Below, piece after piece: positions 27,949 to 32,384 of a stretch of 64,000 bases of DNA. A model generated the notes under the pieces. The model made no database searches and was not told where the DNA came from. It saw only the letters and a list, made by a program, of their open reading frames with translations. Location: contig NZ_JAUSUZ010000001.1 in assembly GCF_030813715.1 (NCBI RefSeq), forward strand, positions 5,146,001 through 5,210,000. The letters are read 5' to 3'. Origin of the DNA: Catenuloplanes indicus (lineage in GTDB: Bacteria; Actinomycetota; Actinomycetes; Mycobacteriales; Micromonosporaceae). The position numbers and the translations under genes are program-made. Position 1 is the first letter of the stretch, and each line of letters begins with the position of its first letter.

Positions 27949-29967
27949 CTAATCGGGGTTGAGCACGGCCAGCAGGGTTCCGGCGGCCACGTGGATACCG
28001 GGCTGGACCGGGACCGAAGCGACCACGCCGGCCGACGGGGCGTGGACCGGGTGCTCGACCATCGAGGATTCCAGCGTCAGCAGCAGATCACCGGCCCGCA
28101 CGCGCTGGCCCGGCACCACCATGACGCGTGCGATCGCCCCCGGCAGCGGTGCCGTGAGGGACCCGTCGGTCAGTTCGGACGGCCGCGGGAAGCGGGGGAG
28201 CTCGGTGAGGGCGACGGAGCCCTCGGGGCTGTCGACGTAGGAGACGTCGGTGACGCGGTGGACGCCGAAGGTGAGACGGATGCCGTTGACGTCGAGGACG
28301 ACGCGGTCGGGGGCGGCGGAGACGACGGCGACCGGGGGGTGGTCGTCGGTCAACGGTGGGGCACCGAGGCCGGCCAGGTCGAGTTCTTCCGGGTCGACGG
28401 CGCGGACCCACCAGCCGGCCAGCTCGCCGGTGCGCTCCAGGCGGTAGCCGACCTCGACCGGGCCGGCCGGGCCGTCGTAGACGGTGATCTGGGCGCCGGA
28501 GGGGACGTTGCGCCAGCCGGACGGGATGGTGGCGAGAACGGGACTGCACGCGCGGCGGGCGGCGGCACCGGCCAGGGCGGCGGCCAGGCAGGAGACGCGG
28601 ACCGCGTCGACCGAGGAGAGCAGCGGGGCGAAGACCTCGGGGTGGCGGTCCAGGAAGTTGATGTCGACGTTGCCGGAGCGGAACGCCGGGTGCCGCAGAA
28701 CACGTACCAACAAATCGCGGTTGGTCACGACGCCGTGTACGTGCGATCGCGTCAGCGCGGCGGCGAGCATGCGGGCGGCCTCGTGCCGGGTCGGGGCCCA
28801 GGCGACCAGCTTCGCCAGCATCGAGTCGTAGTAGACACCGACCATGGAACCGTCCGCGACGCCGGTGTCGAGGCGCAGGCCGGGCTGGAGCAGTGGCTTG
28901 AACGAGCCGGCCACGTCGGGGACGTGGAAGCGGTGCAGGCGGCCGGTGGACGGCAGCCAGGCGTACGCCGGGTCCTCGGCGCAGAGCCGCACCTCGATCG
29001 CGTGGCCGCGGACCGGTGGCGGTGCGTTCATCGGCAGCGGGGAGCCCTCCGCGACCAGCAGTTGCAGGCGCACCAGGTCGAAGCCGGAGACGCACTCGCT
29101 GGTGGCGTGCTCGACCTGGAGCGCGGTGTTCATCTCCAGGAAGAAGAAGTCGCCGGACGGCGCGAGCAGGAATTCGACGGCACCGGCGCCGACGAAGCCG
29201 GACGCGCGGACCACCGCGGTCGCGGCGGTGCAGAGCTGGGCGCGGAGGGTGGGCGAGACCGCGGGGGACGGCGTCTCCTCGATCAGCGTCTGGTAGCGGC
29301 GCTGGATCGAGCACTCGCGCTCGCCGAACGTGATCACGCCGCCGGTGGAGTCCGCGATCACCGGGATCTCGATATGCCGGGCGCGTTCCACGTACGGTTC
29401 GGCCAGCGCTGTGCCGTTGCCGAACAGGCCGGCGGCCTCGCGGCGGACCGCGGCGAACGCGTCCGCGAGTGTGTCCGGGTCGCGGACGATGCGCATCGCC
29501 CGGCCGCCGCTGCCGACGTCCGCCTTGACCAGCACCGGGAAGCCGGGCACGTGTTCCGGCTCGCCGAACGCGGGCAGCATCGGCACGCCCGCGTCGGCCA
29601 GCAGCGCACGCGACTCCAGCCGGGAGGTGAGCAGCGCGATCGCCTTCGGCGGGGCACCGACCCAGGTCAGGCCCGCGTCGATGACCGCGGCTGCGAAGTC
29701 CGCGTCGTCGGCGAGCAGACCGTAGCCGGGGTGCACCGCGTCCGCGCCGGTTTTCCGCGCGGCGCCGAGGATCAGGTCACCGCGCAGGTACGTGGCGGTC
29801 GGCGCGTTCCCCGGCAGGTGCACCGCGTAGTCGGCCTCGGCCACGTGTGGCGCGTCGGCGTCCGCGTCCGAGTAGACCGCGACCGTCTCGATGCCGATCA
29901 ACCGGCAGGTCGCGAAGATCCGCCGGGCGATCTCTCCGCGATTGGCGACCAGGAGTCGTCGGATCAT
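27949..29967 (-). CDS. Acyl-CoA carboxylase alpha-like protein lacking the biotin site
   Basis: The product has 672 residues laid out like an AccA/PccA subunit: biotin carboxylase fold (1-450; RRLLVANRGEIARRIFATCR, HPGYGLLADD, LVKADVGSGGRAM), a middle domain, and a C-terminal biotinyl domain. Key residues are missing: the biotin-accepting lysine of EAMKM is Met636 in LESSMVEHPVHAPSAG; Lys238 of E. coli BC corresponds to Thr227 (QRRYQTLIEE); Arg292 corresponds to Ala282 (EMNTALQVEH). It is probably unable to carry biotin or activate bicarbonate, yet it is intact and lies 7 bases after its partner gene. ATG at 29967 is preceded by TGAGGG. Confidence 0.85.
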   Translation of the reverse strand: MIRRLLVANRGEIARRIFATCRLIGIETVAVYSDADADAPHVAEADYAVHLPGNAPTATYLRGDLILGAARKTGADAVHPGYGLLADDADFAAAVIDAGLTWVGAPPKAIALLTSRLESRALLADAGVPMLPAFGEPEHVPGFPVLVKADVGSGGRAMRIVRDPDTLADAFAAVRREAAGLFGNGTALAEPYVERARHIEIPVIADSTGGVITFGERECSIQRRYQTLIEETPSPAVSPTLRAQLCTAATAVVRASGFVGAGAVEFLLAPSGDFFFLEMNTALQVEHATSECVSGFDLVRLQLLVAEGSPLPMNAPPPVRGHAIEVRLCAEDPAYAWLPSTGRLHRFHVPDVAGSFKPLLQPGLRLDTGVADGSMVGVYYDSMLAKLVAWAPTRHEAARMLAAALTRSHVHGVVTNRDLLVRVLRHPAFRSGNVDINFLDRHPEVFAPLLSSVDAVRVSCLAAALAGAAARRACSPVLATIPSGWRNVPSGAQITVYDGPAGPVEVGYRLERTGELAGWWVRAVDPEELDLAGLGAPPLTDDHPPVAVVSAAPDRVVLDVNGIRLTFGVHRVTDVSYVDSPEGSVALTELPRFPRPSELTDGSLTAPLPGAIARVMVVPGQRVRAGDLLLTLESSMVEHPVHAPSAGVVASVPVQPGIHVAAGTLLAVLNPD

Positions 29968-29974
29968 CAAGCCC

Positions 29975-31576
29975 TCACATCCGGAAAACGCCGAACCGGT
30001 CGGCGCCACCGACCGGGCCACTATGGATCGCGGACAGACACAGGCCGAGTACGGTCCGGGTGTCCCGCGGGTCGATCACGCCGTCGTCGTGCAGCCGGCC
30101 GGAGACGAACAGCGCGGCGGTCTGCGCCTCGACCTGCCGTTCGACGTTCACCCGCAGGTTCCGGTCGAAGTCCTCCTCGTACCGCTGGCCCTTGACCTCG
30201 GCGGCCTGCCGGGCCAGCGCGGTGAGCACGCCGGTCAGCCGCTCCGGCACGAGCGCGGCCGCGCGGGCGTTCGGCCAGCTGAACAGGAAGCGGGGGGCCA
30301 TGGCGCGGCCGGACATCGCGTACGCGGCCGGCCCGTGCGCGGCGCCCAGGTTCACGGCCAGGTGCGGTACGCCGGACGCGGCGACCGCGCTCATCATCGC
30401 GGACGCGTGCTTGACGATCCCGGCCTGCTCGAACTCGGCGCCGGTCCGCAGCCCGGGCGCGTTCTGCAGGAAGATCAGCGGCGTGCCCGACGCGTTCGCC
30501 AGCTGAATGAACTGCGCACCCTTCTGCGCCTCCGCGGAGGCCAGCGGGCCGCGCGCGTTGGCCAGCACGCCGACCGGGTAGCCGTGCACCTCGCCCCAGC
30601 CGGTGACCAGCGCGGTGCCGTAGCCGGGCTTGACCTCGTCGAAGTCGCTGGCGTCCAGGATCCGGGCCAGCACCTCGCGTGGGTCGAACGGGGTGCGCTC
30701 GTCCGCGGGCGGGATCGCCAGCAGGTCCTCGGCGTCGTACTTGGGTGGCGCGGCGAGCGCGGTGCGCGGCGGTGGGCCGAGCTTGCGCCAGTTGAGCCGG
30801 CGCATGCACTGGCGGGCCAGGCGTACCGCGTCGCGCTCGTCCTCGGCCAGGAAGTCGGCCAGGCCGGAGCGGGTGGCGTGCATGGCGGCGCCGCCGAGCG
30901 CCTCGCCGTCCGGGATCTCGCCGGTCGCCTCCTGGACCAGCCGCGGCCCGGCCACCGAGACCTTGGCCTGCCCGCGGACCAGCACCGTGTAGTCGGACAG
31001 GCCGGGCAGCCAGGCGGCCACGTCGACCGCGTCGCCGAAGACCACGCAGATGGTGGGGATCCGGCCGGCGGAGAGCCGGGCCAGGTCGCGCAGCACGCTG
31101 CCGCCGGGCACGAACGCCTCGACCTGGGCGGGCAGGTCCGCGCCCGCGGACTCGACCAGGCTGATCAACGGCAGCCGGTTGGCCAGCGCGATCTCGCCGG
31201 CCCGTTCGATCTTGCGGAGCGCGATCGGGTTCAGCACGCCGCCACGTACGGTCGGGTCGTGCGCCACGATGACGCACTCGACGCCCTCGACCACGCCCAG
31301 GCCGGTGACCACGCCGGCGCCGACCGGCTGGTCGGTGTGCCAGCCCGCGACCGGGGACAGCTCCAGGAACGGTGCGTCCTGATCGAGCAGCAGGTCGATG
31401 CGCTCGCGGGGCATCAGCCGGCCGCGGGCGTGGTGCCGGGTGACGTGCCGTTCGCCGCCGCCGGCGCGCGCCAGGTCGAGCGCGTTCACCAGCGCGCCGA
31501 GGCGCTCCAGCATCGCGTCCCGGTTCTCCTGGTACGTCGGGTTGCGCGGATCGATGGCGGTGTCGAGGACAGCCAT
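29975..31576 (-). CDS. Acyl-CoA carboxyltransferase beta-like protein with altered oxyanion loop
   Basis: 533 residues, related to methylcrotonyl-type carboxyltransferases: GRLMPRERIDLLLD near the start, then LISLVESAGADLPAQVEAF, LIFLQNAPGLRTGAEFE and APRFLFSWPNARAAAL. In normal family members the first oxyanion hole is a glycine-rich GSCTAGGAYVP loop; here the matching stretch is GDAVDVAAWLPGLSDY, without the glycine pair. With its alpha-like neighbour also lacking catalytic residues, biotin-dependent carboxylation seems lost and another acyl-CoA reaction or a binding role is more likely. ATG at 31576 with AGAGGGG upstream. The genes are read as one unit after crp, past a hairpin. Confidence 0.83.
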   Translation of the reverse strand: MAVLDTAIDPRNPTYQENRDAMLERLGALVNALDLARAGGGERHVTRHHARGRLMPRERIDLLLDQDAPFLELSPVAGWHTDQPVGAGVVTGLGVVEGVECVIVAHDPTVRGGVLNPIALRKIERAGEIALANRLPLISLVESAGADLPAQVEAFVPGGSVLRDLARLSAGRIPTICVVFGDAVDVAAWLPGLSDYTVLVRGQAKVSVAGPRLVQEATGEIPDGEALGGAAMHATRSGLADFLAEDERDAVRLARQCMRRLNWRKLGPPPRTALAAPPKYDAEDLLAIPPADERTPFDPREVLARILDASDFDEVKPGYGTALVTGWGEVHGYPVGVLANARGPLASAEAQKGAQFIQLANASGTPLIFLQNAPGLRTGAEFEQAGIVKHASAMMSAVAASGVPHLAVNLGAAHGPAAYAMSGRAMAPRFLFSWPNARAAALVPERLTGVLTALARQAAEVKGQRYEEDFDRNLRVNVERQVEAQTAALFVSGRLHDDGVIDPRDTRTVLGLCLSAIHSGPVGGADRFGVFRM

Positions 31577-31654
31577 GTGCAACCCCTCTACGTCTGTGCG
31601 GCCCGGCCCTGTTGCCACACGTCGTAACGAGCGACCCGCAGGGGCGAAACGCGC

Positions 31655-31686
31655 CGAGCCCCGGCGGGTGATCCCGCCGGGGCTCG
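31655..31686 (-). terminator. Perfect 14-bp hairpin after crp
   Basis: CGAGCCCCGGCGGG, loop TGAT, CCCGCCGGGGCTCG. It separates crp from the downstream carboxylase-like pair on the minus strand; with a weak T tract, some readthrough is possible. Confidence 0.75.
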
Positions 31687-31706: not shown

Positions 31707-32384
31707 CTAGACGCGGGCCCGGCGGGCCAGGCGCTCCGGGTCCAGGATGATCACGCTCTTGCCGTCCAGGCGCAGCCAGCCGCGCGACGCGAAGTCGGCG
31801 AGCGCCTTGTTGACGGTCTCCCGGGACGCGCCGACCAGCTGGGCCAGCTCCTCCTGGGTGAGGTCGTGCGTGACGCGGAGGACGCCCCCGTCACGGGTGC
31901 CGAACCGGCCTGCCATCTGCAGGAGGTTCTTCGCGACCCGGCCGGGGACGTCGGTGAATATGAGGTCGGCCAGGTTGTCGTTCGTCCGTCGTAGCCTGCG
32001 GGCGAGTACCCGGAGCAGCTGCTCCGAGATCTCCGGCCGGTTGTGCAGCCACGGGCGCAGCGCCTGCTTGCGCAGCCGGGCCAGCCGGGTGTCGGTCACC
32101 GCGGTCGCCGTCGCGGTGCGCGGGCCGGGGTCGAAGAGCGAGAGCTCACCGAGCATGTCCGACGGACCCATGATCGAAACGAGATTCTGCCGGCCGTCAG
32201 CCGCGCGCCGCCCGAGCTTGATCTTGCCGGACAGTACGATGTACAGGCTGTCCCCGGGCTCGCCCTCGTTGAAGACGACCTCGCCCTTCCGGATCTCGAG
32301 GGTCTCCATCTCCTTGGCGAGCGCCTCGGCCGCCTCAGGATCAACCCCCTGGAAGATCCCGCTGCGGGCCAACACCTCGTCCAT
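31707..32384 (-). CDS. crp: Crp/Fnr-family cAMP receptor regulator
   Basis: 225 residues, closely like the mycobacterial Crp: [14 protein letters not shown], cyclic-nucleotide domain with [24 protein letters not shown], the linker [31 protein letters not shown], and the helix-turn-helix [23 protein letters not shown]. It probably binds cAMP and controls respiration, resuscitation and starvation genes. ATG at 32384 follows GGAGGT directly; a TTG 15 bases earlier is less likely. It is transcribed away from the CapA-like gene. A predicted adenylate cyclase lies at 14.9 kb. Confidence 0.95.

Follow-up and report, generated by a model that had tools for sequence, protein, structure and literature searches.

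Biotin-dependent carboxylases are textbook enzymes. The described systems closest to the gene pair considered here are two acyl-CoA carboxylases, namely 3-methylcrotonyl-CoA carboxylase (MCC), known from Pseudomonas aeruginosa (3u9s, 3u9r) and as mycobacterial AccA1-AccD1, and geranyl-CoA carboxylase (GCC) of the AtuC/AtuF type. The pair itself lies in a stretch of 64,000 nucleotides from Catenuloplanes indicus, referred to below as the window, to which the coordinates of the pair apply. It consists of an alpha subunit gene with biotin carboxylase (BC), BT and biotin carboxyl carrier protein (BCCP) domains and a beta subunit gene for the carboxyltransferase (CT). Catalytic residues are missing from both subunits, and both are under purifying selection. 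The carboxylase has probably outlived its pathway and been kept as a non-catalytic alpha/beta complex with a binding role.

The pair resembles MCC in domain order, sequence and predicted CT fold, but differs from it in being without the biotinyl lysine, Arg292, both CT glycine loops and the operon partners (BC residues are numbered throughout by alignment to AccC of Escherichia coli MG1655). The resemblance to GCC lies in the intact relatives, which adjoin atuA, and in the window CT, which on an alignment reading is without the three-residue insertion that marks MCC beta chains under the rule given in an excerpt of PMC4673880. The same catalytic losses set the window pair apart from GCC. Mycobacterial AccD1, an MCC, may not follow the insertion rule. 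With pseudoenzymes generally, the pair shares homology to active enzymes, the loss of catalytic residues and purifying selection, and it looks like a pseudoenzyme. Among open-licence papers, no report of a biotin-carboxylase pseudoenzyme or of a retained non-catalytic biotin-dependent carboxylase was found.

Catalytic residues of the window pair

Both open reading frames are unbroken and stand side by side, as an earlier note on this DNA had stated; they lie on the minus strand. The CT gene (29975..31576, ATG start at 31576) encodes a carboxyltransferase of the MCC/GCC type with 533 aa, and the alpha gene (27949..29967, ATG start at 29967) a BC-BT-BCCP protein of 672 aa. The BC, BT, BCCP and CT domains were all recovered by homology in Pfam and PDB searches. 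The best solved relative of the alpha subunit is chain A of 3u9s, the P. aeruginosa MCC alpha chain, and the nearest solved relatives of the pair as a whole are the alpha and beta chains of that enzyme (3u9s, 3u9r). By homology, the pair is classed as an MCC/GCC-type acyl-CoA carboxylase. The window genome holds three further BC matches and three further CT matches besides it. At G000:C1:2448494-2452885, an open frame of 1877 aa is given for the BC and CT matches alike, perhaps that of a single-chain acyl-CoA carboxylase.

The features of an active carboxylase that are missing from the pair are the biotinylated lysine in EAMKM/L, the BC residues Lys116, Lys238 and Arg292 (here Arg, Thr and Ala) and the CT oxyanion loops. 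Five genomes of the window genus were examined. The biotinyl-lysine position is occupied by Met636 (ATG codon, 28060..28062, minus strand) in 5/5 of them. Since the last 75 alpha residues are free of lysine in all five, the residue has not shifted to a nearby position, an eventuality that the earlier note had allowed for. The equivalent of Arg292 is Ala282 (GCG codon, 29122..29124, minus strand), again in 5/5 genomes and confirmed by the AccC alignment. According to both the DNA and the alignment, the first CT glycine loop (31010..31036, minus strand) reads GDAVDVAAW, where intact relatives have GNATAGGAY. The second loop (30302..30346, minus strand, from the alignment) reads GAAHGPAAYAMSGRA, compared with GASYGAGNYGMCGRA in intact relatives; its core has changed from GASYGAGNY to GAAHGPAAY, or to GAAHGAAAY in one genome.

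The earlier note had named three sites of loss, in the biotinyl domain, the BC domain and the first CT loop. These were read correctly, but the list was too short, as Lys116 (Arg in 5/5 genomes), His236 (Tyr in four and Asn in one) and the second CT loop have changed as well. Its equation of Thr227 (ACG codon, 29287..29289, minus strand) with Lys238 is right for the window DNA but does not describe the genus, four of whose five genomes keep Lys there. The losses common to all five genomes are consequently those of Lys116, Arg292, the biotinyl lysine and both CT glycine loops, with Lys238 excepted. Of the 171 BC positions that do not vary among 51 intact loci, 21 have changed in all five genomes, and 32/189 invariant CT positions have changed in the genus, the second glycine loop included. 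Lys159, Glu201, His209, Gln233, Glu276, Glu288, Asn290, Gln294, Val295, Glu296 and Arg338 are kept.

Operon context and depth of loss among relatives

Searching 354 family genomes and scanning a set of named genomes provided 111 loci for comparison, of which 102 belong to the family and 9 are outgroups. The family loci are mostly the best matches among the 354 genomes plus the named loci, the latter including Phytohabitans, Actinoplanes, Dactylosporangium, Micromonospora and Spirilliplanes. Weaker or partial matches (for example in G006, G061, G147, G182, G352 and G360) were left aside, and eight duplicate loci were removed before comparison. The alignment of locus L201 at the scored sites is untrustworthy. 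Group g29 probably corresponds to the Actinoplanes group, g31 to Phytohabitans and g58 to Dactylosporangium.

The genes around intact pairs are interpreted as encoding a TetR regulator, AtuA and either one or two acyl-CoA dehydrogenases, and crp often lies within 8 kb. The tetR-atuA-CT-BC-dehydrogenase operon is present in 42/102 family loci. None of the 42 shows a change in the biotinyl lysine or the CT loops (GNATAGGAY or GTATAGGAY; GASYGAGNY), and the 15 BC residues that were scored are likewise unchanged but for His236 to Tyr in the three loci of g18. In the 60 other loci, those of the window genus included, tetR, atuA and both dehydrogenases gave no match at 1e-10 within the fetched stretch. 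CT loop 1 is changed or missing in 60/60 of these, in one case (G011) by a single Gly-to-Ala replacement, and in many the BCCP domain, the biotinyl lysine or residues of BC have been lost too. Operon presence and intact catalysis go together. No second open reading frame of at least 150 aa with a further BC or CT piece was found in the 111 loci. One stop occurs inside some genome-search matches; most of these start ahead of the ATG-equivalent, at a query residue below 19, and the stop-listed G036 and G026 are loci whose BC ends before the BCCP.

Traces of the missing partners are found in part of the family. A protein-level relic of the lost dehydrogenase lies upstream of CT in 8/60 operon-less loci, all from the Actinoplanes group, compared with 0/60 in reversed controls. 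Protein comparison found no such relic upstream of CT in the window genus; that its pair comes from the operon is therefore deduced from orthology and from a position next to crp in common with the intact operon. An AtuA-family match is absent from 4/5 window-genus genomes, with one distant match in G002. Matches of this family occur in 48/67 g29 genomes, some at full length, at other places, and in g29 the pathway may persist from another locus. At G032:C40:77792-82549, also in g29, an AtuA-family gene lies close to a second BC match.

The depth of loss differs from lineage to lineage. In g16, g17, G370 and G022, the scored BC residues and the BCCP lysine are kept (except for Val295 to Ala in g17), while CT is eroded to 371-456 aa. 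Groups g9 and g59 have changed CT loops and Asn290 replaced by Ser. The 29 loci of the Actinoplanes group have lost Asn290 (to Thr) and Arg292 (to Ser or Thr) and have a CT of 419-488 aa; the biotinyl lysine is kept, with EAMKLEH in 29/29. Spirilliplanes (G031) shows Lys238 to Met, Asn290 to Thr, Arg292 to Ala and Glu296 to Gln. The biotinyl lysine is replaced by Thr both in G018, together with Glu288 to Gly, and in G062, together with Asn290 to Ser. The window genus combines its changes at Lys116, Arg292 and the biotinyl lysine with a CT of full length and altered loops. The replacement of the biotinyl lysine by Met or Thr, and of Arg292 by Ala, Ser or Thr, suggests separate events.

The effect of two of these replacements is described for the E. 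coli enzyme, in which N290A lowers BC activity 250-fold and R292A 200-fold, as given in an excerpt of PMC8667948. R292A is the exact change present in the window genus. On these grounds, the BC of the window genus and of the Actinoplanes group is very probably inactive as a biotin carboxylase. The BC gene is nevertheless retained in 67/67 genomes of g29, 5/5 of the window genus, 11/11 of g16 and 4/4 of g59, and CT stands beside BC in every locus compared (29, 5, 11 and 4, respectively). The pair can be lost, yet these lineages keep it without its chemistry.

Parsimony finds four changes of operon state on the BC tree, which does not include L201 and L202 on account of their badly altered BC. 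Approximately unbiased (AU) tests did not reject a single clade made of the two large operon-less groups (p = 0.315), of all operon-less rows but G062 (p = 0.35) or of all 58 operon-less rows (p = 0.188). As no grouping is rejected, no number of independent operon losses is claimed. A single operon loss may lie behind all of them, the catalytic residues having disappeared afterwards to differing depths.

Selection and preserved structure

The ratio of nonsynonymous to synonymous change (dN/dS) was estimated by NG86, pooled over the 10 pairs of the five genus genomes, with bootstrap 95% intervals. Because all five genomes share the losses, the differences among them arose afterwards. The post-loss ratio is 0.097 (95% 0.069-0.128) for BC and 0.191 (95% 0.140-0.254) for CT, both far below 1, and the preference of the earlier note for selection over decay is thereby upheld. 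Neighbouring genes in the same genomes give 0.230 (nth), 0.204 (nudix hydrolase), 0.196 (marP-like protease) and 0.006 (crp), and the range over six groups with intact orthologues is 0.108-0.396 for BC and 0.091-0.207 for CT. The constraint on BC is that of a working gene, and that on CT lies at the relaxed end of working genes. The argument rests on this ratio and not on the open frames, which are weak proof in genes whose G+C content at third codon positions is 0.93 and 0.96; the antisense strand is also open over long stretches. The marks of a decaying pseudogene, namely stops, frameshifts and a dN/dS near 1, are absent, and what is found is the pseudoenzyme combination of lost catalytic residues and purifying selection. 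The earlier note had held that close relatives with the lysine and normal loops would point to recent decay. The nearest intact relatives (G368 and Phytohabitans, BC identity 74-76%) are of this kind, but recent decay does not follow, since the losses are older than the five species of the genus and selection is still acting.

Constraint is unevenly distributed over the alpha chain. With BC domain boundaries set by the author of the analysis, changed invariant positions in the window genus number 18/112 in the two N-terminal domains and 3/59 in BC-C, BT and BCCP (p = 0.049); the corresponding figures for the Actinoplanes group are 16/112 and 0/59 (p = 0.0014). Among the five alpha domains, dN/dS in the window genus is highest in the ATP-grasp domain (0.147), and in the Actinoplanes group BCCP has the lowest dN of the five (0.034). 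BCCP was rejected as the most constrained domain of the window genus, where a high dS accounts for its low dN/dS (0.060) and its dN is not unusually low. Among intact loci, the BT domain evolves fast in g32 (L191, L192, L194, L196, L197) and in Micromonospora (L061, L075, L203-L209), with dN/dS of 0.612 and 0.405, respectively.

The conservation listing covers 108 loci, L059, L201 and L202 having been left out. The glycine-loop segments are the least conserved parts of CT, while its N-terminal region and the C-terminal DDGVIDPRDTRTVLG segment are conserved even in strongly eroded forms. The BT-domain tryptophan of GWRN (28513..28515, minus strand) is at least 98% conserved in these loci. In GCC and MCC, a BT 'hook' tryptophan is buried between two CT domains, near a long N-terminal CT helix, according to an excerpt of PMC4673880, and the GWRN residue is likely its equivalent.

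Structure predictions cover single CT chains. The AlphaFold model of the window CT (pLDDT 84.0, pTM 0.85) has a helix at 13-37 and low confidence at 146-155, 439-441 and 485-495. Foldseek matches 1-20 are all MCC-type beta chains, with TM 0.85-0.93 on query length. A CT eroded to 376 aa also keeps the predicted fold (pLDDT 86.9, pTM 0.86), with an MCC beta chain as best match and TM 0.80-0.88 on query length over Foldseek matches 1-25.

The upstream neighbour of the pair, named crp from its sequence (31707..32384, minus strand), is found near the intact operon too. It is therefore ancestral context and no evidence of function. Among the eroded loci, L154, L155, L160, L161, L163-L169 and L177-L183 have crp on the other side, inverted, with nth where seen; in the intact loci L148, L149 and L151, crp alone is inverted. 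Between crp and CT lies a G+C-rich hairpin (31656..31685, minus strand) with arms unchanged in the five genomes and no T run after it, and it is not among the terminator-like sites of the scan. The hairpin and roughly 60 following bases (window about 31602-31685) are almost unchanged in the five genomes. A loose motif, GTGTCG-N14-CTCGTT, occurs at most 450 bases upstream of CT in 74/111 loci, with the variant GTTTCG-N13 at 31626-31650 in the window. It was rejected as evidence for a promoter, as it sits in the 3' coding end of the dehydrogenase where that gene is found (9 of 22 loci read) and codon conservation at the motif is ordinary (rank 208 of 245). Of four genomes, two hold a single site each of a stricter pattern, and the window genome, with a variant that lies outside this pattern, holds none.

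Explanations and significance

The explanation that a retired carboxylase has been kept for binding can be set out as a sequence of steps. The ancestor would have been an MCC/GCC-type carboxylase that shared its operon with acyl-CoA dehydrogenases, AtuA and a TetR regulator, and the ancestors of the window genus would have lost the partner genes. The chemistry would have gone as well, at the CT glycine loops, the bicarbonate and biotin residues of BC and the biotinyl lysine, an order suggested by the comparison of lineages. Purifying selection has kept both proteins. The two chains may still assemble as an MCC-like alpha/beta particle, and this particle, or the alpha chain within it, would act by binding, as a scaffold or regulator, and not by catalysis. 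That the pair is retired from catalysis and under selection is well supported and much safer than the putative scaffold role. Of the scaffold and sensor roles mentioned in the earlier note, the scaffold fits better, as the BC changes gather in the ATP-grasp domain.

Several observations weigh against this explanation. In L059, L201 and L202 (Dino_bin41, G026, G036), the alpha chain ends after BT with an altered BC, and no BCCP was found in the three frames just downstream of these genes. In addition, 59/354 genomes are without a match better than 1e-115, and because of both findings any role must be dispensable in some lineages. The 60 operon-less loci are not 60 independent cases, since a single operon loss is not rejected (AU p = 0.188). 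Selection on CT is relaxed in relatives, with dN/dS of about 0.33 in the Actinoplanes group and g16, compared with 0.091-0.207 in intact groups, and all dN/dS values are pairwise NG86 estimates only. The domain bias of BC changes in the window genus is weak at p = 0.049. Finally, in g16 and its kin, where the scored BC and BCCP residues are kept, the alpha chain alone may possibly be catalytic.

A tentative variant places the second role first. The Micromonosporaceae carboxylase would have acquired its structural or regulatory function while the pathway still existed, catalysis would have been shed later, and the second role would have kept both genes. It is equally tentative that the depth of shedding then varied by lineage, affecting the CT loops only, BC as well, or also the biotin site. 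This ordering is weakened because a single operon loss is not rejected.

It is doubtful, though worth weighing, that the alpha chain alone is selected while CT is on its way out, the alpha chain binding or carrying biotin or serving another carboxyltransferase of the cell. The residues kept in g16 and its kin while CT erodes, the constant EAMKLEH and low BCCP dN of the Actinoplanes group, and the further BC and CT matches in the window genome all speak for it. The lysine-free BCCP, however, precludes biotin carriage in the window genus, CT is still under selection there, and GCC-MCC hybrids could not be produced, their docking hooks being different, according to the excerpt of PMC4673880.

Slow decay is rather unlikely. 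On this view the pair has no function, and its frames stay open because stop codons seldom arise in a G+C-rich genome. The absent operon partners, the raised CT dN/dS of relatives, the long open stretches of the antisense strand and the disappearance of BCCP or the whole gene in some relatives agree with such decay. It is opposed by the low post-loss ratios of both genes, by the presence of BC in every Actinoplanes-group genome, by the absence of frame-broken second pieces in the 111 loci and by the difference in constraint between domains.

That the remodelled sites form a new enzyme, active in a different ATP- or acyl-CoA-dependent reaction, is very improbable. The ATP and magnesium residues Lys159, Glu201, His209, Glu276, Glu288 and Asn290 are indeed kept in the window genus, but no shared new motif was noticed, although no systematic motif search was made. 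A new acyl-CoA reaction in particular, as proposed in the earlier note, is unlikely and finds no support, since both CT loops are changed, the lineages differ there and related lineages delete parts of the catalytic segments. The BC domain hardly comes into consideration as the basis of a nucleotide or metabolite sensor, because the partly kept ATP-site residues lie in a protein whose changes gather in the ATP-grasp domain, the alpha domain of highest dN/dS.

The family holds a graded series, running from intact pairs through CT-only loss to pairs that have lost both active sites, the biotin lysine or the biotin domain in full, and the partner operon serves as an external marker. With this series, the question of why a genome retains a multi-subunit enzyme whose chemistry and pathway have gone becomes testable. 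It also warns against annotating the genes of the window genus and of the Actinoplanes group as working acetyl-CoA or propionyl-CoA carboxylase subunits. If the second role did come first, protein scaffolding can be a moonlighting function of a biotin-dependent carboxylase, and this family would present natural stages in the making of a pseudoenzyme.

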